This document shows, piece by piece, positions 100 to 51,134 of a stretch of 52,462 nt of DNA; within the stretch, counting starts at the first letter, position 1, and the number at the start of each line of letters is the position of its first letter. The stretch comes from Candidatus Levyibacteriota bacterium (GTDB lineage: Bacteria > Patescibacteriota > Microgenomatia > Levybacterales > UBA12049), in assembly GCA_027459725.1 (NCBI GenBank), contig DAIDHK010000009.1:1-52462 (forward strand). Reading direction: 5' to 3'. The notes beneath the pieces are model-generated. The model worked only from the letters and a program-made list of their open reading frames with translations, was not told the DNA's origin and searched no databases. Made by a program: the position numbers and the translations under genes.

Positions 100-2631
100 T
101 TAGACGGATTTTTCAATACAGGTAGCTGAAGCCACTTTTTCAGATTTATCTGAAAAACGCATCAAGATAACACCTTGTGTGTCGCGACCTAGACGTGGAA
201 TAGAATTTAATGCCAATTTTACTACCTGTCCTTTCTTTGAAGTCATGATAATTTCTTCTGTATTCTGAGGAATAATCTGTGCCATCACGACTTTACCAGT
301 TTTATCGGTTACATTTGCTACTTTTACACCCTGTCCTCCCCTACTCTGCCCCCGGAACAAAGCAGCATCAGTTCTTTTACCCAAACCATTTTCCATAATC
401 GTCAACAGCTCTCGTTTTTGTCCAGTTTGGATAATATCCATGCCAACTACTTGATCATTCGTTGCAATCTTAATGCCTCGTACTCCCATAGTTGCACGTC
501 CCATTGGTCGGACTGAACTTTCAGAAAATCTTATAGCTTTTCCTTCACGTGTAACCAACATTACATCATTCTTACCATCAGTTAAATCGCTCCAGGCTAA
601 TTCATCTCCAGCATCTAGTTTGATGGCAATCATTCCTCCCTTGCGGATATTTTCGAATTCTGCAATTTGGGATTTCTTTACCGTACCATGCTTGGTGGTC
701 AGAAAAACATATGTACTACGGTCAGTCTTTCCATAAGTTAAGAATGATTCGACTTTTTCATCAGCAGCAATGTTCAATAAGTTGATAATAGCGGTACCTT
801 TACTTACTCGACTGCTTTCTGTGATTTCATATGCTTTAAGCTGATAGGCTTTGCCTTTATTAGTAAAGAACAAAATATTATCATGGGTTTGAGCATATCT
901 GATATGTGCAATACCATCTTCCTCTTTTGTGGTCATACCTTTTATGCCCTTACCACCTCTTTGCTGAGTTTGAAAACTGTTTAGTGATTGACGTTTAATA
1001 TATCCGGTGTCTGTAATGGTAATTACAGTTGATTCATTGGGAATCAAGTCTTCTTCTGAAAATTCTCCTACTTTGCCTTTATATACCTTTGTGCGTCGCG
1101 GATCGGCAAATTTTTGTTTGAGATTAAGCAACTCATCTTCAATAACATGCAGTATTTTCTTGGAATGAGCCAATAAGTCTTCTAGATAAGCAATAGTTTC
1201 CCTGACTAGTTGCAATTCGTCTTCAATTTTCTGTCGTTCGAGTGCTGCTAGACGTCGCAACTGCATATCTAAAATTGCCGTTGCTTGGATTTCTGTTAAT
1301 TTAAATTTGCTTATTAGATTTTTCTTTGCATCTTCCTGAGTGGCCGATTCGCGGATAGTTTTTATTACGGCATCGATGTTGTCAACAGCGATTTTCAAAC
1401 CTTCTAGAATATGCTCACGAGCTCGGGCTTGTTTTAATTCAAATTCAGAACGACGTCGGATTACTATATAACGATGTTTGAGATATTCTTCGAGAATAGT
1501 CTTTAAATTTAAAGTTTGTGGAGTTCCATTAACTAACGCGACCATATTTACTGGGAAACTTGTTTGTAATGAAGTATGTTTAAATAGATTATTCAACACT
1601 TTTTTTGCAATGGCATCACGTTTTAACTCAATATAAATACGCAACCCACGTCGATCTGACTCATCTCTTAAATCAGAAATACCTTCAATTTTTTTCTCTT
1701 TAGCTAAATCAGCAATTCTGGCAACGAGTTGGGCTTTATTAACCTGGTAAGGGAGTTCAGTGATGATTATGGCTGATTTTCCGTTGCCTATTTCTTCAAT
1801 TTCAGCTTTACCTCGGATCATAATTTTGCCTCGTCCTGTTACATAGGCATTGCGAATTTCATTAATGTCATATATATTACCAGCAGTTGGAAAGTCAGGA
1901 CCTTTAATGAATTGTAAAAGCTCATCAACAGTTACATCTGAAGATAGAGGTACTTTAGACGTATCAGAGGTATCAAATGTCTCAGAATTTTTATTGGATG
2001 TTTCTTCTCCTTCTATCTCGTTTGCAAGATTACTCTTGCCGATAATGTAAACAATTGCATCGATTATTTCACCCAGATTGTGAGGAGGAATTTTTGTTGC
2101 CATACCAACAGCAATACCTTCGGCACCCATTAACAATAAGTTGGGAAGTTTGGCTGGCAAAACAATAGGCTCGTTCAAGCTGGCATCAAAGTTAGGGAGA
2201 AAATCTACTGTCTCTTTATCAATGTCTGTTAATAATTCAGAAGCAATACCAGCCATGCGACATTCTGTATAACGCATAGCAGCGGGCGGATCGCCATCAA
2301 TGGAACCAAAATTTCCTTGACCATCTACAAGTGTATAACGCATGGCAAAATTTTGAGCTAAACGTACTAATGCATCATAGACAGGGATATCTCCATGAGG
2401 ATGATATTTACCCAAAACTTCTCCAACCACAGTGGCACTCTTCTTATATTTTGAACTATGTGTTAAGCCGATTTCATGCATCGCATATAAAATTCTGCGG
2501 TGGACTGGTTTGAGTCCATCGTGTACATCGGGCAATGCGCGTTGTACAATCACAGACATGGCGTAATTCAAATACGCCTTTTTCATCTCTGATGAAATAT
2601 CAATAAGTTTTAGTTTTCCTATGTCAGCCAT
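100..2631 (-). CDS. gyrA: DNA gyrase subunit A
   Basis: Breakage-reunion subunit of DNA gyrase (type IIA topoisomerase), which with GyrB introduces negative supercoils. The 843 residues carry the N-terminal core [20 protein letters not shown], the active-site tyrosine Y121 in AAMRYTE, and six-bladed C-terminal wrapping repeats. The wrapping domain contains a GyrA box, QQRGGKG, near residue 557, which favours gyrase over topoisomerase IV. Two oddities are visible. A Ser/Thr/Asp/Glu-rich insert sits at about residues 200-225, before GPDFPTAG. The position equivalent to E. coli Ser83 is Ile82 (GDIPVYD). The gene is third in a same-strand run gyrB-ppa-gyrA, 52 bases after ppa. The start is the ATG in front of ADIGKLKLI. 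Identification is very secure. Confidence 0.97.
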
Positions 2632-2683
2632 ATGTTTAGTTTAAGTTTTATAAATCAAGAAACTTCATCATGTTAGCTCTTTC

Positions 2684-3226
2684 TTATTTGGAGAAACCTT
2701 CTTTTTTGAAGCGTTCAATACATTCGTGGATGATTTTTTTTGCTTCTTTAACATCCCCCCATCCTAATACCTTAGTTGTTCCTGGTTTTTTTAGGTCTTT
2801 ATAATGAGCAAAATGGAATTCTATTTTTTGTTTCCATCTTGTGCCAAGATCATCTAATGTTTTTATTTGATCACCTGTGTTGCGGTCGTCATCAGGTACA
2901 CAGACGATTTTATAATCCATTTCTCCATCGTCTTCAAAATTAAAAATACCAATGATTTTAGATTTTACTAAGACGCCAGTAGGAATTGGTTCATGACAAA
3001 CAATAAGTACATCTAGTTCATCTCCATCTGTATCTTTCGTAGCAGGTATAAAGCCATAATTTACTGGTTTGGGGAAAACATTTGGTTCTACTCTATCTAA
3101 TATAAATATTCCATGTTCACGTAAATATTCTATTTTAAGCGAAGACCCTTCCGGGATATCAACAATTGCGTTGACCCATCCTTCATCAATATTTCCCGGT
3201 GTAAGTAACTTATTAAAATCTGGCAT
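2684..3226 (-). CDS. ppa: Inorganic pyrophosphatase (family I)
   Basis: Soluble Mg-dependent pyrophosphatase that hydrolyses PPi to two phosphates, pulling nucleic acid and aminoacyl-tRNA synthesis forward. The 180 residues match the usual family I length. Visible hallmarks are the SSLKIEY strand early on, NYGFIPAT, the metal-binding DGDELDVLIV signature (DxDxxDV) and KIEFHFAHYKDL near the C terminus. It lies between gyrB and gyrA on the same strand with 52-56-base gaps. A -10-like TATAAT lies about 16 bases upstream of its ATG, so it may have its own promoter. Linkage to gyrase genes has no obvious functional meaning. Confidence 0.96.
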   Translation of the reverse strand: MPDFNKLLTPGNIDEGWVNAIVDIPEGSSLKIEYLREHGIFILDRVEPNVFPKPVNYGFIPATKDTDGDELDVLIVCHEPIPTGVLVKSKIIGIFNFEDDGEMDYKIVCVPDDDRNTGDQIKTLDDLGTRWKQKIEFHFAHYKDLKKPGTTKVLGWGDVKEAKKIIHECIERFKKEGFSK

Positions 3227-40614: not shown

Positions 40615-42576
40615 TTATTTTTCGTGAATCTGCCACTTTCTTTTGAGGACAGATATTATCTTTTCATGTACTGTTTTGACATCTTCCTGAGTTAAATTCT
40701 TTTCAATGTTTTGATATATAACATGAAAAGTTCTAGTACTCTCAAAGCGGTCGATAAGTTCTACACTAGTTACTAAAGAACTTTGTTTCTTGATCAGATC
40801 AATAACTTCCTGAGTAAGTATATCTCCAGAAATGACTAATGAGATATCTTCTAGCACTGGAGGGAACTTGCTGGGTGAATTATAGGTTTTTCTCAAGCTA
40901 GCTGTGGCGATTAACTGTTCGAAGTTTACTTCAAAATCTAAAAGATTTTCATCTAGAATTTCTATGACACCATTTTGCTTTCCTGCTATATAAATCATTG
41001 CCCCATCTCCTCCTTGGTCGGAAGGTTTAAATTCATAATTCTTAATACCCATGTCGTTAAATAATTGTTGTAAGTATCCCTTTATAGTGTAGAATGAAAT
41101 ATTTGATTGCTTTATAACCACAGCTAATACTCGTATTTCTTCCGGTAGACTATTCTCTCTCTTGTGATATACGTTGGAAATCTCAAAAATCTTTATTTGA
41201 TCATAACTCTTATTTTCACTTACTACTCTGAGTAAGCTGGGTACCAAAGAATTACGCATATAGACAAATTCCTCATTAAGAGGGTTATCAATGGTGACAG
41301 CTTCATCCAATGGGCCTTCATACAGATTTTCCGGTACCATAGAATAAGTATATGTTTCAGTGAATCCCCAGTATTTGAAGGCATTTTTAACTCTTTGTTC
41401 CCAATAAAATGGATTTTTTTCTTCTTGTACTATTTGTTTAGCGTTCAATAAAGGAAGTTTTACGGGTAGATTATGATAACCATAAACTCGTGCTATTTCT
41501 TCTATAATATCTTCTGGTAATGTAACATCATAAGCTCTTATAGTGGGTACAGTGACATGTAAATTATTATCTTCTTTACGTACATGAAAACCCAATCTAG
41601 TCAAAATATCAATTGATTTATACTCAGGAATATCGACACCAATTATGCTATTAATCTTTTGCAGACTTACTGTGATATGTTTCTCCTCTGACTTGTGGGG
41701 GTAAAGATCGATAACTTGACTGACGACTTTTCCGTCGGCTAATTTTTGATACAGATGAATTCCATATTGTACCGCTATCTCGCATAGATTGGGATCAAGA
41801 TGCTTCTCGTTTAATTGTGCTGCTTCAGTTCTGATTCCTAAGTTCATAGATGTTTTTCGCACTTTGTTTGAATCAATATTGTTTACGAAAAAAACTATGC
41901 GTTTCGTTTGATCTGTCACTACGCTATTTTTAAGTCCCATGATTGCCAAAAGATCGATTATTTCTCCCTTTTTATTCTCGGCTACAATTTCACCCCCGTT
42001 AAGTTTGTATGTTTTATTATCCAAAGTGGTGATTTTTTCACCTAATTTGGCTTCTCTTATGATTAATTCATTGCCACCTAATCTGTCATAATCAAACACA
42101 TGAGTAGGTTGTCCTGTGACCCGCATAACATAATTGGTAATGTCAATTAAATTATTTAAACTGCGAATTTCACTGCTCTCTAGTCTTTCTGAGATATACT
42201 GAGGTGATTTTCCAATTTGTACTTCCATTACTACAGCACATACCCGGTTGACAGCAGGACTTTTGATAGTGATGCTAAGATCAGCTGTATCACTATCTGT
42301 GGATTTCTTGATTTCGGAGGGAATGATTAGAGGCTTATATGTAGCCTCTAATCCATTTTGAGGCAAAACAGCCCCTGCCTCGCGTGCTAATCCATCTACA
42401 CAGGCCAAATCGGGACGATTAGTAGTAACTTCAATATCATAAATAAAATCATCATTTTGTTTCTCCACTCTTTCTATTGAAACACTCGTTAATGAGATCT
42501 GTTTAGCTATTTCCTGTGCTGATGCAGGAGTATGTAAGTATTCTTTTAACCAGGAATCAAGTATTTTAATATTCAT
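40615..42576 (-). CDS. pheT: Phenylalanyl-tRNA synthetase beta subunit (short form)
   Basis: Beta subunit of the PheRS tetramer, supplying editing and tRNA binding. The 653 residues start MNIKILDSWLKEYLHTPASAQEIAKQISLTSVSIE and go directly to the B3/B4 region (VTTNRPDLACVDGLAREAGAV). The EMAP-type tRNA-binding domain found after residue 40 in the 795-aa E. coli protein is missing. The C terminus is an FDX-ACB anticodon-binding domain (SPSKFPPVLEDISLVISGDILTQEVIDLI). It follows pheS by 4 bases and is the last gene of the aromatic run. Confidence 0.94.
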   Translation of the reverse strand: MNIKILDSWLKEYLHTPASAQEIAKQISLTSVSIERVEKQNDDFIYDIEVTTNRPDLACVDGLAREAGAVLPQNGLEATYKPLIIPSEIKKSTDSDTADLSITIKSPAVNRVCAVVMEVQIGKSPQYISERLESSEIRSLNNLIDITNYVMRVTGQPTHVFDYDRLGGNELIIREAKLGEKITTLDNKTYKLNGGEIVAENKKGEIIDLLAIMGLKNSVVTDQTKRIVFFVNNIDSNKVRKTSMNLGIRTEAAQLNEKHLDPNLCEIAVQYGIHLYQKLADGKVVSQVIDLYPHKSEEKHITVSLQKINSIIGVDIPEYKSIDILTRLGFHVRKEDNNLHVTVPTIRAYDVTLPEDIIEEIARVYGYHNLPVKLPLLNAKQIVQEEKNPFYWEQRVKNAFKYWGFTETYTYSMVPENLYEGPLDEAVTIDNPLNEEFVYMRNSLVPSLLRVVSENKSYDQIKIFEISNVYHKRENSLPEEIRVLAVVIKQSNISFYTIKGYLQQLFNDMGIKNYEFKPSDQGGDGAMIYIAGKQNGVIEILDENLLDFEVNFEQLIATASLRKTYNSPSKFPPVLEDISLVISGDILTQEVIDLIKKQSSLVTSVELIDRFESTRTFHVIYQNIEKNLTQEDVKTVHEKIISVLKRKWQIHEK

Positions 42577-42580
42577 ATTA

Positions 42581-43615
42581 TTAGAACTGCTCCAGAAAAT
42601 TTAGGTTATTACTATATAATGTACGTAAATCGTCGAGTTGCAGACCTTCGCTCATCATTAATACTCTCTCAACACCAAAACCAGATGCAAAACCTGAATA
42701 TTCATCGGGATCAATATTACATGTTCGTAGAACATTAGGATGTACCATACCGGCACCTCCTAATTCCAACCATCCAGATTTACAAAGTTTACATCCTCGT
42801 CCCTCACAAACACCACAAGAAATATCAACCTCAAATGAAGGTTCTGTAAACTGAAAGTGATATGGTCTAATACGTGTAGTACGGTTTACCCCGAAATAGG
42901 ATTTAACAAAGTAATCGAGAGTTCCTCTTAAGTGTACTATAGATATATTCTTGCCAACCACCAGGGTCTCAAATTGATGAAACATCGCAGAATGTGAAAC
43001 ATCGGACTGGCGACGGTAATTTTTTGCAATATTAATCATCTTAATAGGCAATTGTTTGTTCAACATTTCTCTAATTTGTCCATTCGAAGTGTGTGGAGTT
43101 AAAACCACAGGACCATGTTTTGGATCTGGTTTTTGTCTGATGAAAAATGTTTCCCAGTCATCCCGTGCTGGATGATCTTTAGGAAAATTTAATGCTTCAA
43201 AAGCAAACCAGTCAAAGTCAATTTCCGGATAGCGTTCACGAGTAAAACCAATGCTCTCAAAAATATTAGTTATTTCTTCAATGACCTGGGTTACAGGATG
43301 TAGATGTCCGAGTGGTGGAAGTAAAGCTGGGTCTGTGACATCGATATTGTGAGTGACTCTTTGTCGGACTTTCTCACTTAATTTCGCCTCAGTTTCATCG
43401 ATCAGATTTTCAACGATTTGTTTTGTCTCATTGATCTTCTTACCAAATTCTGCTTTTTTTTCTGGAGACAGTTTAGTAATCTCTTTAAATATTTTGGTTA
43501 GTTCTCCACTTCGACCGATAAACTGGAGTTTAATATCGTTTAATTCACTTTTAGTTTTGGCCTCTAAAATTAATGAGATAGCGTTATTTTTAATGCGTAA
43601 TAATTCCTCTTCCAT
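42581..43615 (-). CDS. pheS: Phenylalanyl-tRNA synthetase alpha subunit
   Basis: Catalytic subunit of PheRS, class II fold. The 344 residues have the N-terminal coiled coil (about 1-90), motif 1/2 regions FDWFAFEALNFPKDHPARDDWETFFI and RTHTS-equivalent LTPHTSNGQIREML, a loop CGVCEGRGCKLCKSGW, and motif 3 GFASGFGVERVLMMSEGLQLDDLRTLYSNNLNFLEQF. It is separated from the aminotransferase gene by 46 bases with no clear terminator or promoter, so it may belong to the attenuator-controlled operon. Confidence 0.96.
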   Translation of the reverse strand: MEEELLRIKNNAISLILEAKTKSELNDIKLQFIGRSGELTKIFKEITKLSPEKKAEFGKKINETKQIVENLIDETEAKLSEKVRQRVTHNIDVTDPALLPPLGHLHPVTQVIEEITNIFESIGFTRERYPEIDFDWFAFEALNFPKDHPARDDWETFFIRQKPDPKHGPVVLTPHTSNGQIREMLNKQLPIKMINIAKNYRRQSDVSHSAMFHQFETLVVGKNISIVHLRGTLDYFVKSYFGVNRTTRIRPYHFQFTEPSFEVDISCGVCEGRGCKLCKSGWLELGGAGMVHPNVLRTCNIDPDEYSGFASGFGVERVLMMSEGLQLDDLRTLYSNNLNFLEQF

Positions 43616-43661: not shown

Positions 43662-44807
43662 CTAAAAATACTTATCAATTTGATTGATACTTACACAATA
43701 ACTTACACGAACATATCTTTCCCCATTTGATCCAAATGCTGTGCCGGGGGTAAGCAAAATATTTTTTTCATGCAAAATATGCATAGAATATTCCTCTGAG
43801 TTTTTAAATTCATCTGGAATTTTTGCCCAGATATATAACGCACCTTGTGGCATGTCAAAAGTTAATCCAAGTTTACTTAGTTTTTCCGCAATAATATCTC
43901 TTCTCTGTTGATAGCTTTCAAGCATTTGTTTTTGCCAGATTAAATCAGTTTGAGTTAATGCATAAGCTCCCAGTTTTTGTAGTGGTAACCACATCCCAGA
44001 ATCCATTTGTGATTTTACTTTCGCCAGACCATCAATAATTTGTTTATTTCCCACACACCAGCCCATACGAAAGCCTGCAAATGAATAAGTCTTGGAGAAA
44101 GAACCAATCTCAATTGCTATCCCTTTTGCACCTTTAACTTGTAAGATACTGGGAGCTTTTTCACTTGAAAATGTAATTTCTGAGTAAGCATTGTCATATA
44201 AGACAAGAAGCTTATGTTTGCGTGCAAAGGTGACTAAATCTTCTAATCCGGTAAGAGTAATTACTTTACCAGTTGGATTAGAAGGGAAATTGACCCACAT
44301 ACATTTAGTTTTGGGTGAAATTAATTTTTCTATCGATTTTAAATCAATTGGAAGATTTTTATCATTTGATAAGTCATAATAGACGACCCTTGCCCCCACC
44401 ATTAATGCTGGATCAGTATAGGCAGGGTAACCTGGATTGGGAACTAGAATTTCATCACCTTCATTAAGTAAGGCCAGGGGTAAATGAGAAATACCCTCTT
44501 TGGCCCCAAGTAAAGGTAACAGCTCATCTGCATTTAATTCAACTTCAAATCGCTTTTGATACCAGTTAATTAAGGCATCTGAGAATTCTTTACATGCCCT
44601 AAAGCCTGGATATAAATGCATTTTACTCTCGTGTAAATATTCTTCCAGCTTATCTAGGTATATTTCACTTGTAGGTACATCAGGAGAGCCAATTCCAAAA
44701 CTAAGTACTTTGCGCCCCGTTTCCTTTTCAACTTTAACTACCTCCCTGGCTATTTTGGCAAAAACGTACTCTGAGAATAAGTTTAATCTGTTTGCAGTAT
44801 TAACCAT
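43662..44807 (-). CDS. PLP-dependent class I/II aminotransferase, probably aromatic
   Basis: Fold-type I aminotransferase of 381 residues. Visible are the cofactor region LLPLLGAKEGISHLPLALLNEGDEILVPNPGYPAY, the NPTG motif SNPTGKVITL, the Asp of LVLYDNAYSEITF, and the Schiff-base Lys in SFSKTYSFAGFRMGWCVGN. Relatives include LL-diaminopimelate and aspartate aminotransferases, so substrate cannot be told from sequence. Its location between the prephenate dehydrogenase-dehydratase gene and pheS points to phenylpyruvate/hydroxyphenylpyruvate, giving the last step to Phe and Tyr. It starts 18 bases after the upstream gene. Confidence 0.88.
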   Translation of the reverse strand: MVNTANRLNLFSEYVFAKIAREVVKVEKETGRKVLSFGIGSPDVPTSEIYLDKLEEYLHESKMHLYPGFRACKEFSDALINWYQKRFEVELNADELLPLLGAKEGISHLPLALLNEGDEILVPNPGYPAYTDPALMVGARVVYYDLSNDKNLPIDLKSIEKLISPKTKCMWVNFPSNPTGKVITLTGLEDLVTFARKHKLLVLYDNAYSEITFSSEKAPSILQVKGAKGIAIEIGSFSKTYSFAGFRMGWCVGNKQIIDGLAKVKSQMDSGMWLPLQKLGAYALTQTDLIWQKQMLESYQQRRDIIAEKLSKLGLTFDMPQGALYIWAKIPDEFKNSEEYSMHILHEKNILLTPGTAFGSNGERYVRVSYCVSINQIDKYF

Positions 44808-44825
44808 TTTGTCTATTATATACTA

Positions 44826-46175
44826 TTAGTGATTTCGTCTTTTGATGAGCATGAAACTTGTAAAATTCTCTGATAAGTCCTGCAGGTTTTCTTCGATTAT
44901 ATTTAAATCATAAAGATCAGCTAACATTTTGCTACCCATTACGGCAATATTTTTATCCAGTTTCTTTTCAGATAGTAGTTTTGCCACCTTAGCATGATCA
45001 ACTAGTTCACCTTTACCAGACACTATTTTCAGATTGGAAAATTTAATCTGTAAATTAGATTTACATTGTGCAAATACCTGAGGATGAGTCATGATGGTTG
45101 TAATTTCTTTTATTTTTGTATCACTACGAATCATTAATGCATGACTAATCTTTATGGCAAATTCTTCAACAATTTGAAAATTGTATTTGGACATCGCATT
45201 TACGCTTTCTCCGACTATCCCGCCAATTGAATTATGAATGGCAAATAATCCAGCATCTATTTCGCCTTTATGCAAAGCTTTTAAGACATTCTCAGATGTA
45301 AATAAATATTTGGTCTTAAATTTATTTATCTGATGACGATTCAGATAATCATGCAAGGCTTCTTCATTAAAACTGCCTTTGCCGCCTTGAATACCCACGG
45401 TTAGCCAACCCCTTTTAACTTGTCTGGGTAGTAATTGGTTATACAGCTTATCATAACTTTTGCCTAGTTTAATTCTCATTTGCCGTGTGTATGGGTTAAA
45501 TTGCTGGAGGTTAAGAAATAACTGTTTGGTATCATGACAAGTTTGGTCTTTTACTTCAAGCAACTTTTGGGTGCCTAGAGAGTCAATTAAAGTAGGCATC
45601 AGTTTGTATTGCTCAAGCAATCTGCCAACAAAATGAGTTAATCCCTGTGAATTTGCCGCTAATTTATCATGTTTTTTTGCTGTCATCTCAACAACCCTCA
45701 AACCTTTAGATTGAAAAAAATCTTTCCATAGGTGGTAGTTTTTATCATCCATACGGAACTTGTCAATAACAATAGGCAAGTTTGTAAATCCGTTTTTGCT
45801 GCTATCTGGCCCAAACATAGGGTGAGTCAACAAAATTTGCTGGCTAGAAGTCTTCAGATGTTTGTTAAATACTTCTTTGGGATGTACTTTCACCGAAAGA
45901 ACATCAATCATGGTTTGGTTGGGTCGAATATGTTTGAGGTGTGACTTAATTACTGCTTCGAATTGATCGATGGGAACAGCATAGAAGATTATATCACTTA
46001 AATATGCCTGCTCAACGGTATTAGCTATAACAGTAGTCTGTTCTAACCCCAGTTTCATACGATCCAACCTAGAACGGTTAAAAATTACGATTTTAAAATC
46101 ATCTTTTAGCAATCTATAAAGTGTTTGTCCAAAACGACCGAAGCCAACAATGGTAATTTCTGTTTTAGTTTTCAT
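44826..46175 (-). CDS. tyrA: Prephenate dehydrogenase-prephenate dehydratase fusion
   Basis: A 449-residue fusion. Residues about 1-260 are a TyrA-type dehydrogenase with the NAD-binding ITIVGFGRFGQTLYRLL, DIIFYAVPIDQFEAV and the LLTHPMFGPDS segment. From about residue 265 a PheA-type dehydratase begins: LTVGIQGGKGSFNEEAL, GEIDAGLFAIHNSIGGIV, KISHALMI, THPQVFAQC and a closing ENFTSFMLIKR. One protein would therefore take prephenate to both 4-hydroxyphenylpyruvate and phenylpyruvate. No ACT domain remains, so feedback inhibition is probably absent. The usual dehydratase TRF motif reads TSF. The ATG at 46175 lies one base after the chorismate mutase stop and has GGAAAGG before it; a TTG 18 bases upstream is rejected. 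Confidence 0.88.
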   Translation of the reverse strand: MKTKTEITIVGFGRFGQTLYRLLKDDFKIVIFNRSRLDRMKLGLEQTTVIANTVEQAYLSDIIFYAVPIDQFEAVIKSHLKHIRPNQTMIDVLSVKVHPKEVFNKHLKTSSQQILLTHPMFGPDSSKNGFTNLPIVIDKFRMDDKNYHLWKDFFQSKGLRVVEMTAKKHDKLAANSQGLTHFVGRLLEQYKLMPTLIDSLGTQKLLEVKDQTCHDTKQLFLNLQQFNPYTRQMRIKLGKSYDKLYNQLLPRQVKRGWLTVGIQGGKGSFNEEALHDYLNRHQINKFKTKYLFTSENVLKALHKGEIDAGLFAIHNSIGGIVGESVNAMSKYNFQIVEEFAIKISHALMIRSDTKIKEITTIMTHPQVFAQCKSNLQIKFSNLKIVSGKGELVDHAKVAKLLSEKKLDKNIAVMGSKMLADLYDLNIIEENLQDLSENFTSFMLIKRRNH

Positions 46176-46176
46176 G

Positions 46177-46437
46177 CTACCTTTCCTTTTCAACAGCTAT
46201 GTCATGTAATAAATTGTAAACTTTAGTAACAACATTTGATGTAAGGCCAAACTTTAAACCAATATTTAATCGGTGTTTCAATGCTTGCTGTTTACGCGTG
46301 GTATCTATGACAGGAGTGCCTGTTTGTTTTTTTATTTTACCAATTTTTTCAACAATAGATAATCGCTTGGCGACAAGCTTGAGTATTTCTACATCGATAG
46401 TATCAATTTCTTGACGTAATTGAATCAGAGTTTTCAT
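46177..46437 (-). CDS. aroQ: Chorismate mutase (AroQ class)
   Basis: Small all-helical chorismate mutase of 86 residues converting chorismate to prephenate. It shows LRQEIDTIDVEILKLVAKRLSIVEKIGKIKKQTG, with the conserved Arg of LRxEID, the Asp and the catalytic Lys/Arg set, then DTTRKQQALKHR. The stop is followed by one base and the ATG of the dehydrogenase-dehydratase, so the two are coupled. Confidence 0.92.
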   Translation of the reverse strand: MKTLIQLRQEIDTIDVEILKLVAKRLSIVEKIGKIKKQTGTPVIDTTRKQQALKHRLNIGLKFGLTSNVVTKVYNLLHDIAVEKER

Positions 46438-46493: not shown

Positions 46494-46688
46494 TTATCGT
46501 CTTATAACTACGTAGTCGCTTGATGGTTGTATATTATCCATATTTCTAACAGGTCTACCTGACCGTAAAGATAAAGGTCTAATTGCTGTTGCAGGCCCGA
46601 AGTCCATTCCGGCATCATTTGTTGCTACTCCAATTTGTTTTCCATCTTTAAATATTGGATTAATTACAGTTAATTCTATTCTTGACAT
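46494..46688 (-). CDS. 64-aa protein of unknown function in the aromatic operon
   Basis: A small protein, MSRIELTVINPIFKDGKQIG then ATNDAGMDFGPATAIRPLSLRSGRPVRNMDNIQPSSDYVVIRR. It is not recognised. It has no membrane segment, no cysteines and a basic C terminus. A very strong Shine-Dalgarno, GGGAGGTGAG, lies upstream of its ATG, in contrast to most genes here. Its place between DAHP synthase and chorismate mutase suggests a role in the pathway, for example as a regulatory partner, but nothing in the sequence proves this. Confidence 0.65.
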   Translation of the reverse strand: MSRIELTVINPIFKDGKQIGVATNDAGMDFGPATAIRPLSLRSGRPVRNMDNIQPSSDYVVIRR

Positions 46689-46731: not shown

Positions 46732-47670
46732 TTATGCACTCATGTAAAAATCATGAGTTTGTCTATCTCTTGCGTTTAAGTTACGGAATGCAGAGAGTTC
46801 ATTGACTAAATCTCTTAATTCATCAAGTGTAATATGTTGTTTGGTATCGGTTTGTGAGTCACCAGCTTCAATCAAAATACCATCATATAAGAAACCCGAG
46901 CCTTCTCGCATTTTCATAGCCTCGACGGTGGTTTTAATGATATCATCTCGCAAGTCAGGTCCCAGACTATGACTAGGGTCAAAGAACAATCTATGTTGAG
47001 TTTTTTGTTTGACCCTGCGTGCGATTTCATGAACTAATGCACTACGGAATCTCCCTTTTTCAGGTACTTCCACTCCACGATGTATTAGTGCAACTCTGTT
47101 TTCCATTAGAGGAGCAAAGGTAGTCAAGCCTTTCCAAGTTTTTTCCAAAGGTGTTTGTGTTCCCGTAGGATTATTAGCATTATCTAAAGACGTTCCTAAA
47201 GTTTTGCCATTTTTAATACCTAGGTACCAGCCATACTTGTGTGCAACTCTTGACATTTGTCCAATTTGAAAACCTAATTGCATGACTGCCGGATTCCAGA
47301 ATAATCCTTTTCCATCAGGGAGTATACCTGCATACCAGTTCATCTGTATCTCTGGTAACATAACCTCACAAGCTACGACTAATCCCGTTTTTTTTACTAC
47401 GTCTCTGGCAAAAGCCACACTAGGAGGTAAATAGTCCAAACTTCCTTCTTGGGCTTTAATTAAGGCGGGGTAGTCTATACCCATCCCTTCACCAGTTTCA
47501 CTGTTTTCAGTGCGCGACTTGACACCCACTACCCTAGTCCCCCAGATGGCTGGACGGCCGTCAGGCGAGAGAATATCTCCTATTTGATGTATCTGGTGGA
47601 TATTTTGTGTATCCACTGAACACGGGCCAGCGATAATTGTTAGTTTGTTTGATGGTAATTCTTTGTTCAT
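46732..47670 (-). CDS. aroF: DAHP synthase (class I type)
   Basis: Expected to condense erythrose-4-phosphate and PEP to DAHP, the first step of the shikimate pathway. The 312 residues carry the PEP-binding N-terminal signature LTIIAGPCSVD, the GTRVVGVKSRTENS segment, ACEVMLPEI, GIKNGKTLGTSLD, and FFDPSHSLGPDLRDDI near the C terminus. The last is the metal-site Asp/His pattern of the DAHP/KDO8P synthase superfamily. KDO8P synthase is less likely in a monoderm and in this operon. The ATG at 47670 is used; a TTG 15 bases upstream is inside the terminator's downstream region. Expression is controlled by the attenuator directly in front. Confidence 0.82.
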   Translation of the reverse strand: MNKELPSNKLTIIAGPCSVDTQNIHQIHQIGDILSPDGRPAIWGTRVVGVKSRTENSETGEGMGIDYPALIKAQEGSLDYLPPSVAFARDVVKKTGLVVACEVMLPEIQMNWYAGILPDGKGLFWNPAVMQLGFQIGQMSRVAHKYGWYLGIKNGKTLGTSLDNANNPTGTQTPLEKTWKGLTTFAPLMENRVALIHRGVEVPEKGRFRSALVHEIARRVKQKTQHRLFFDPSHSLGPDLRDDIIKTTVEAMKMREGSGFLYDGILIEAGDSQTDTKQHITLDELRDLVNELSAFRNLNARDRQTHDFYMSA

Positions 47671-47683
47671 ATGTTCATCCCAC

Positions 47684-47706
47684 AAAAAAACCTCCCTTTT
47701 GGGAGG
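47684..47706 (-). terminator. Attenuator terminator before DAHP synthase
   Basis: On the minus strand CCTCCC, loop AAAA, GGGAGG, then seven T. The stem is perfect. It ends 13 bases before the DAHP synthase ATG, so when it forms the whole operon is cut off. Confidence 0.9.
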
Positions 47707-47759
47707 CTAGTAAAGCTTTTAGCTTCTGGTCTTTAATTTAGACCACTACTTTGCCTCCC
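47701..47759 (-). promoter_or_regulatory. Antiterminator pairing and spacer hairpins
   Basis: GGGAGGC (47753-47759) lies in the last codons of the leader peptide and is perfectly complementary to GCCTCCC (47701-47707), which includes the 5' arm of the terminator. The two pairings exclude each other. Between them lie two small hairpins, TGGTCT/AGACCA (47727-47745) and AAGCT/AGCTT (47713-47725), which bring the arms together. Confidence 0.8.
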
Positions 47760-47811
47760 GGGTTGGGAAGTAAAAGTAAAACCAAAAAACATTTTGAATT
47801 CTTGAGTTCAT
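47746..47811 (-). CDS. Leader peptide of the aromatic operon
   Basis: A 21-codon frame, ATG at 47811 to TAG at 47746. It reads MNSRIQNV, then FWFYFYF, then PTREAK. Seven consecutive aromatic codons (TTT TGG TTT TAC TTT TAC TTC, 47767-47787) include Phe, Trp and Tyr. A ribosome stalled there leaves the downstream GGGAGGC free to form the antiterminator. A ribosome that reaches the stop codon covers it and lets the terminator form. The ATG lies 6 bases from the -10, so the peptide would be translated from a leaderless mRNA. Chance alone is very unlikely to place seven aromatic codons ahead of a terminator and aromatic biosynthesis genes. Confidence 0.88.
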   Translation of the reverse strand: MNSRIQNVFWFYFYFPTREAK

Positions 47812-47817
47812 ATAAGT

Positions 47818-47846
47818 AATATATTACTTTGTCTTGACATTGTCAA
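47818..47846 (-). promoter_or_regulatory. Promoter of the aromatic operon
   Basis: On the minus strand, TTGACA (47841-47846), 17 bases, TATATT (47818-47823), 6 bases to the leader ATG. The -35 lies inside the last codons of rplT. Confidence 0.75.
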
Positions 47847-48174
47847 CAATTTGCTTGAAGGCGGCTGGGTCATTGACAACTAAATCACTCAAAATCTTGC
47901 GATCAAGCACAATATTTGCCTTTTGTAATTTATTCATGAAAACACTGTAGGAGAGACCTTGCTGTTTGACTGCTCCACTAATACGAGTAATCCAAAGAGA
48001 ACGGAAATCTCTTTTGCGAAGTTTTCGACCGTGAAATGCATAAGCACCAGCATGCAAAACAGCCTGCTTAGCCGTTCTGACCAGCCTGCGTTTGGTACCT
48101 GTGTAACCTTTAGCTAACTTTAGTAATTTATTATGTTTTCTTCGGGAAACCATCCCGCGTTTTACTCTTGCCAT
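47824..48174 (-). CDS. rplT: 50S ribosomal protein L20
   Basis: A 116-residue L20: MARVKRGMVSRRKHNKLLKLAKGYTGTKRRLVRTAKQAVLHAGAYAFHGRKLRKRDFRSLWITRI, full length and canonical. It follows rpmI by 2 bases in the conserved infC-rpmI-rplT order. Its last codons contain the -35 of the aromatic operon promoter. Confidence 0.97.
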   Translation of the reverse strand: MARVKRGMVSRRKHNKLLKLAKGYTGTKRRLVRTAKQAVLHAGAYAFHGRKLRKRDFRSLWITRISGAVKQQGLSYSVFMNKLQKANIVLDRKILSDLVVNDPAAFKQIVDNVKTK

Positions 48175-50977: not shown

Positions 50978-51134
50978 GTTTTTTCTCCTCTCTTTAAATT
51001 ATCAAACCACAAAAAAAACTCGCATTGCAGAATCATCTATTTCACAATAATACAACCCCGCTAAACAGAGGTAGAACCAGTCATAACAATAATATGTAAT
51101 TTGCTCATGTTTTGTTACGTTATAAATCATTCAT
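50978..51134. other. Intergenic region between the 50-aa gene and tspO
   Basis: This AT-rich stretch holds an AAAAAAAA run and divergent start regions. A TATAAA at 51121-51126 may be the -10 of the TspO gene, but no convincing -35 is present. No RNA gene is visible. Confidence 0.3.

Follow-up and report, generated by a model that had tools for sequence, protein, structure and literature searches.

What controls the aromatic amino acid genes that follow rplT in this Levyibacteriota genome, and which amino acids does that control respond to? The window, by which we mean the whole 52,462-nt stretch of DNA that was analysed, carries on its minus strand, at 47684-47846, a promoter, a 21-codon ORF and an intrinsic terminator ahead of a divergent DAHP-synthase-like gene (Table 1). 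We conclude that this element is very probably a leader-peptide (ribosome-mediated) transcription attenuator with the logic of E. coli pheM and trpL. The conclusion builds on its anatomy, its folding energetics, the covariation of three helices, its conservation and the cognate genes downstream.

Table 1. Features of the element and the genes around it, in window coordinates.
Feature	Position	Strand	Evidence and remarks
-35 box TTGACA	47841..47846	-	sequence; within the rplT 3' end; same place in many relatives
-10 box TATATT	47818..47823	-	sequence; ends 6 nt ahead of the leader ATG
Leader peptide ORF MNSRIQNVFWFYFYFPTREAK, 21 codons from ATG at 47811, plus stop TAG	47746..47811	-	sequence; counterparts in relatives
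Regulatory codons FWFYFYF (codons 9-15)	47767..47787	-	sequence, folding, codon statistics
Segment 1 (UACUUUUACUUCCC), partner segment 2	47765..47778	-	fold; covariation of the 1:2 core
Segment 2, core GGGAGGC (47753-47759), partner segment 1 or 3	47747..47759	-	fold; 2:3 covariation
Two small hairpins nested in the antiterminator	47712..47745	-	fold; similar by eye in several relatives
Segment 3 (AGCCTCCC), terminator 5' arm, partner segment 2 or 4	47701..47708	-	sequence; 2:3 and 3:4 covariation
Segment 4 (GGGAGG) and T-tract, intrinsic terminator	47684..47696	-	sequence, fold, covariation
rplT, upstream gene, end of the conserved thrS-infC-rpmI-rplT block	47824..48174	-	PF00453 E 5e-43
Divergent DAHP-synthase-like gene, first regulated gene, ATG 47670	46732..47670	-	PF00793 24.8 bits
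64-aa ORF, family unrecognised, Shine-Dalgarno-like AAGGGAGGTGAG upstream	46494..46688	-	
Chorismate mutase (AroQ type)	46177..46437	-	PF01817 E 4e-19
Prephenate dehydrogenase-prephenate dehydratase fusion	44826..46193	-	PF02153 and PF00800
Class I/II aminotransferase	43662..44807	-	PF00155
pheS	42581..43615	-	PF01409 E 6e-77
pheT	40615..42576	-	PF03483, PF17759, PF03484

The two promoter boxes are separated by 17 nt and match the consensus at 11 of 12 positions. Since the -10 box ends so close to the leader ATG, transcription probably starts at or adjoining that ATG. Promoter-like sites were not enriched in the surrounding 5.2 kb (15 against 14.8 expected), so the promoter call is based on position and conservation. 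Terminator-like sites were enriched in the same region (12 against 2.6 expected). The terminator itself (47708-47684) reads AGCCTCCC-AAAA-GGGAGGTT followed by T, with GGGAGG as the 3' arm and T7 as the tract, and 13 nt separate it from the ATG of the DAHP-synthase-like gene. Runs of at least seven consecutive aromatic codons occur at six places in the six frames of 1.38 Mb of the same genome; among them, only the leader run contains Trp and precedes a terminator and a gene. The run length of seven is itself a local accident. In a genome of the same genus, G001, the run reads ...FWFYFTSPTGR..., and small indels relative to it made FYFTS into FYFYF in the window. The conserved leader motif is approximately F-W-F-Y-F-T-S/P. 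An out-of-frame ORF, MFFGFTFTSQPGRQSSGLN (ATG 47792), also gave a predicted switch when taken as the leader, but its start lacks a promoter and it was not preferred.

The 128-nt leader has a folding energy of -41.7 kcal/mol against -26.4 +/- 3.6 for shuffled sequences (z -4.3; 0 of 200 shuffles). Alternative-structure folding gave competing helices and a switch at codons 9-14. For this calculation, the probability of the terminator, P(terminator), was computed with all bases up to the leading edge of the ribosome forced unpaired and the A site placed at each codon. At equilibrium, where absolute probabilities are not calibrated because the E. coli controls trpL and pheM hardly switch in full-length form, P(terminator) was 0.91 with no ribosome, and 0.93 and 0.90 with the A site at codons 7 and 8. 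For codons 9-14 (F, W, F, Y, F, Y) the values were, in order, 0.11, 0.03, 0.17, 0.01, 0.03 and 0.33; all positions from codon 15 through the stop gave about 0.95. Antitermination is predicted at codons 9-14 only, and the last codon of the run, F15, falls outside the predicted sensing zone. Varying the assumed offset of the downstream footprint between 8 and 14 nt shifted this zone by about one codon at most. A more realistic calculation halted transcription where segment 3 ends; helix 2:3 then had a probability of 1.0 when the ribosome stalled in codons 9-14, and of 0 when it stood at the stop. Both positive controls behaved properly in this halted calculation: for E. coli trpL it gave 0.99 at either Trp codon and 0.0 at the stop; for pheM, about 0.95-0.97 at the Phe/Tyr codons and 0.26 at the stop. 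Unlike trpL and pheM, the ribosome-free window RNA halted at segment 3 prefers 2:3 (0.85), so the state without translation needs the 12-bp 1:2 hairpin to form first.

Helices 1:2, 2:3 and 3:4 are mutually exclusive, as indicated by folding and by the covariation of all three. Covariation was scored on alignment A3, which holds 81 aligned matches to the covariance model R1, nearly all from outside its training set; R1 was built from 21 elements of the window's family and contains helices 1:2 and 3:4 only. For helix 2:3, which is not in R1, we counted 43 compensated cells where shuffles gave 8.2 +/- 7.1; its covariation score was 0.302, compared with 0.158 +/- 0.014 for the shuffles, and all slid registers scored lower. 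Compensated cells numbered 67 for 3:4 (15.5 shuffled) and 43 for 1:2 (10.7 shuffled). None of 500 shuffles matched the covariation score of any of the three helices; these shuffles ignore the relatedness of the leaders, which the slid registers take into account. Segments 2, 3 and 4 change jointly, as in GGGAGG/CCTCCC/GGGAGG, GCGGGG/CCCCGC/GCGGGG and GCGGGA/TCCCGC/GCGGGA. RNAalifold on the first MAFFT alignment gave helix fragments only, because the arm positions shift, and model-based alignment with pair counting was used instead. The promoter, the 21-codon FWFYFYF peptide, the GGGAGGC segment, the terminator and the 13-base gap described in the first-pass annotation are all correct in the sequence. 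Its proposal of ribosome-mediated attenuation is upheld by folding and covariation, as is the GGGAGGC/GCCTCCC antiterminator by folding and the 2:3 signal.

We infer the translation, the stalling, the transcript ends and the identity of the sensed tRNAs. RNA polymerase would start at or beside the leader ATG, and a ribosome would initiate on the nearly leaderless message. With ample charged tRNA-Phe and tRNA-Tyr, and probably tRNA-Trp, the ribosome would pass FWFYFYF and reach the stop, where it would cover segment 2, and the 3:4 terminator would end transcription before the DAHP-synthase gene. When one charged tRNA is scarce, the ribosome would stall in codons 9-14 and cover segment 1. Segment 2 (GGGAGGC) would then pair with segment 3 (GCCTCCC), the terminator could not form, and the operon DAHP synthase-chorismate mutase-PDH/PDT-aminotransferase-pheST would be transcribed.

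The gene order on the minus strand is thrS, infC, rpmI, rplT, the leader with its terminator, the DAHP-synthase-like gene, the 64-aa ORF, chorismate mutase, the prephenate dehydrogenase/dehydratase fusion, the aminotransferase, pheS and pheT. The assignment of the first enzyme gene is weak by profile: the Pfam match lies just below the cut-off of 25.5 bits, and an NCBIfam match (E 5e-8) is partial. Further grounds for the assignment are the operon context and homologues that lie in shikimate operons. One such homologue sits in the genome G013, where the leader is followed by a pfkB-type kinase, DAHP synthase, and apparent aroB, aroA, aroK, aroE and aroD. Solved-structure sequences gave no added support for the assignment, and in contigs of named genomes just two relatives of the gene were seen, both in Ca. 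Roizmanbacteria, which places the window within Patescibacteria on the side of Microgenomatia, near that group. In G001, the leader precedes two orphan ORFs, an aminotransferase and pheST. The source genome is 1.5 Mb in size. A search of its whole assembly (rated 98.67% complete) found no DHQ synthase (PF01761) and no chorismate synthase (PF01264); the same assembly does hold DAHP synthase, chorismate mutase, PDH/PDT and a trp operon. We count these two absences against the attenuator reading; an assembly gap, alternative enzymes and uptake of an intermediate are candidate explanations. An apparent AroA match in this genome is, from its neighbours and sequence, more likely MurA. In many genomes of the class, the attenuator is directly followed by small and mostly unrelated ORFs (50-140 aa) that precede the enzyme genes and often have strong Shine-Dalgarno sites, as at 46494-46688 in the window and at 2296-3048 in locus L089.

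How widely is the element kept? Within the family, rplT was found in 67 of 73 genomes, and in at least 29 of these 67 a terminator closely follows a short ORF that contains an aromatic run. Some other members have a similar terminator after rplT and no aromatic ORF. In the class Microgenomatia, R1 matched 172 of 374 genomes (about 46%) at E <= 0.01 per genome, with about 4 expected by chance and the E-values rough. Both the aromatic run and the paired arms are present in relatives; the lack of both there was what the first-pass annotation had said would speak against its reading. At the level of the phylum, 15 of 380 genomes matched at E <= 0.001, six of them outside the class. Five of these six encode clear aromatic leaders, such as MIKQYFYFWFYFTDARGRID and MRNYFWFYFFAGLGRVI, with differing terminator stems; the sixth (L194, in G480) has a Leu-rich leader, MSRLRTEILLLLLLVSPGEVSF, before an unrecognised gene. 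The leader was also found away from rplT, before DAHP synthase, PDT or pheS. As separate observations, a related leader with other codons, MITLTTNAYYWHYTSQREAGSFVV (L195, in G186), precedes a histidinol-phosphate-aminotransferase-like gene, and two attenuator/terminator units lie close together in G018 (L055), G080 (L153, L102) and G106 (L161), each preceding a separate aromatic or unrecognised gene.

The order in E. coli K-12 is thrS-infC-rpmI-rplT-pheM-pheS-pheT. Given this shared order, the window element occupies the pheM slot: it lies between rplT and pheS, with four enzyme genes and the 64-aa ORF intervening before pheS. The two leaders are also alike in their Phe/Tyr run (FRFFFYFST in pheM) and in their nearly identical arms (GGAGGCU / AGCCUCC / GGAGGCU in pheM). 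The Rfam model RF01859 Phe_leader matches the window element over its full length with 37.1 bits (E 7.6e-5), below the gathering score of 55, E. coli pheM itself scoring 75; the whole window had no Rfam match at the gathering threshold. R1, in turn, finds E. coli pheM with 33.5 bits (E 1e-4 in 6 kb). No T-box was matched in the window at gathering, nor among the matches up to E 5 in 47600-47900. Unlike pheM, the window leader has Trp, more Tyr, no Shine-Dalgarno sequence and its ATG at the promoter, and aromatic biosynthesis genes stand between it and pheST. Rather than a DAHP-synthase attenuator as such, the element is of the pheM type, a leader downstream of rplT that often stands before pheST alone.

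The leaders E. coli pheL (of pheA) and trpL share the three-segment logic, with regulatory codons in segment 1. In pheL the run codes for a single amino acid and serves a single pathway, and the same property sets trpL apart from the window leader. E. coli ilvGMEDA (Ile/Val/Leu) and thr (Thr/Ile) each have a single leader that responds to several amino acids whose synthesis shares enzymes; the window leader resembles these as a multivalent leader, with aromatic amino acids instead. The nearest DAHP-synthase case is C. glutamicum aroR-aroF, where an aromatic leader likewise stands upstream of a DAHP-synthase operon: the leader peptide AroR (Neshat 2014) has Phe-Tyr-Phe, acts by ribosome-stalling attenuation and, according to the review PMC11802643, responds to Phe and not to Tyr. 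That system belongs to another phylum, and the review mentions neither a Trp codon nor pheST. Since an aromatic leader that attenuates a DAHP-synthase operon is already known from this case, the element is less novel than the first-pass annotation had thought; the phylogenetic breadth, on the other hand, is much greater. A 2010 paper stated that only Proteobacteria and Actinobacteria were known to use leader-peptide attenuation, and added a Firmicutes case (PMC2965389). Our literature search, which covered open papers, found none on leader-peptide attenuation in Patescibacteria. The mechanism is classical, and the phylum, the mixed aromatic code and the breadth are new; with its probable leaderless start, that code and phylum are what distinguish the element.

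To which amino acids, then, does the leader respond? Among 103 leaders, the median of the lowest P(terminator) in the run was 0.017, against 0.999 at the stop. A run minimum below 0.5 together with a stop value above 0.8 was obtained for 79% of them, and about 17% had no predicted equilibrium switch. The last six antiterminating codons were 71% aromatic, compared with 14% elsewhere, and a label-shift test on the aromatic codons gave 0.31 observed against -0.01 +/- 0.03 shifted. Recognised aromatic-pathway genes or pheST lay within up to 3.5 kb downstream of 71 leaders (DAHP synthase 41, pheS 26, aroB 19, PDT 17), and for 27, at least 1.4 kb of downstream sequence contained no recognised target gene. 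Tyr was present in 45 of 46 leaders of biosynthetic operons but only in 13 of 23 pheST-only leaders, which are Phe-rich. The corresponding counts for Trp were 28 of 46 and 6 of 23 (p 0.01, optimistic, like the p-value below, because the leaders are phylogenetically related). Restricted to the window's own family, the comparison still shows the Tyr difference (p 0.018), and the Trp association is not significant (8/14 vs 5/12); in the rest of the class, Trp was present in 20 of 32 leaders of biosynthetic operons and in 1 of 11 pheST-only leaders. Sensing of Phe and Tyr is well supported by these codon statistics, and sensing of Trp by the window leader, for which a single codon speaks, is plausible. 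The earlier idea that one run senses all three aromatics is thus supported for Phe and Tyr and plausible for Trp; equal sensing of the three is not established.

It is quite possible, if somewhat short of probable, that the attenuator senses Phe only, or Phe and Tyr, in the manner of pheM and AroR, and that the Trp codon is neutral. The reported response of AroR to Phe and not to Tyr, although it contains Phe-Tyr-Phe (PMC11802643), and the presence of W in just 52 of the 103 leaders point this way, as do the separate WW leader before trpE in the same genome and the lack of a significant Trp association in the family. Against it, the folding places W10 among the codons where a stall would be most effective, and outside the family the leaders of biosynthetic operons in the class are enriched in Trp. 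We consider it very improbable that FWFYFTS/P is a nascent-chain arrest peptide answering a free amino acid or another ligand in place of slow decoding. The motif is kept over large distances and its FTS/FTP end is often retained, but the conserved C-terminal residues overlap bases of segments 1 and 2, so that RNA pairing explains them; moreover, F, Y and W replace one another freely in the motif, extra residues occur within it, and the codon mix tracks the pathway. Hardly credible is a terminator that merely ends the thrS-infC-rpmI-rplT unit, next to a fortuitous ORF and a DAHP-synthase operon with its own promoter: the terminators after rplT in family members with no aromatic ORF do imply that terminators here need not be attenuators, but the competing helices 1:2 and 2:3 covary, the aromatic ORF is conserved at the right place in the family and in many genomes of the class, the leader also occurs away from rplT before aromatic genes, and its codon mix follows what lies downstream.

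In the 103 leaders, the -10 box of the best promoter mostly ends 6-12 nt before the leader start codon, and a Shine-Dalgarno-like motif precedes 1% of leader starts, compared with 45% of downstream gene starts. The leaders are therefore probably leaderless, and their translation probably starts from an AUG at or near the 5' end. Leaderless leader peptides have been measured for S. meliloti trpL (PMC7298713) and C. diphtheriae ilvB (PMC5784534). Our leaders would resemble these in having the leader ORF at the 5' end of the transcript, a position that here is deduced from the spacing and the missing Shine-Dalgarno sequence.

A scan of 1.38 Mb of the genome (92%) for a short ORF, a terminator and a predicted switch recovered the aromatic leader together with Trp, Ile/Val/Leu and Ser candidates and several weaker ones. 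The candidate trp attenuator (contig C22, 7960-8077) has the leader MYKSNKNIAAWWNLSKRG with tandem Trp and a terminator, followed by trpE-G-D-C-F-B-A; the DNA just upstream reads like the C-terminus of a TrpR-type repressor (EIVKLLKQGMGQHAIAKKLNIGVATVSRGAKEIKEGKFKY). Two branched-chain candidates lie on the minus strand of contig C8, MLRNQNIIVALIITR (5144-5040) before an ilvB-like (acetolactate-synthase-like) gene and MTNLNQVLVALLLIRF (1430-1330) before a 213-aa protein of unrecognised family, both with a CCCGCGAAAGCGGG-T7 terminator. A candidate serine attenuator (contig C3, about 107177-107306) has a Shine-Dalgarno-led, Ser-rich leader, MNSRVIVTNNFSPSSCSFLVKGIFLVI (SPSSCS), and an ATCCCC-GCAA-GGGGAT terminator before a phosphoserine-phosphatase-like gene. 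In the window itself, at about 51000-51090 on the minus strand upstream of thrS, the short ORF MTGSTSV (Thr/Ser) starts a few nt past a -10-like TATTAT and has a small hairpin and a T8 tract behind it; it is possibly a Thr-sensing leader of thrS.

A broader picture can be drawn, which we regard as rather unlikely in its entirety. Patescibacteria would have inherited an ancient, leaderless attenuator of the pheM type and retuned its codon mix to the downstream genes, the run in the window would integrate the charging of three tRNAs, and leader-peptide attenuation would be the main control of amino acid operons in these genome-reduced bacteria. The Patescibacteria form a very large group whose members have small genomes and are mostly uncultured. 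Found in nearly half of the sampled Microgenomatia, the element is a readable marker of regulated aromatic genes and indicates that biosynthesis genes there are under demand control. Its leaders form a natural series in which the codon mix tracks the operon content, offering a direct test of multi-amino-acid sensing, and they raise the question of whether pheM predates the divergence of the bacterial phyla.
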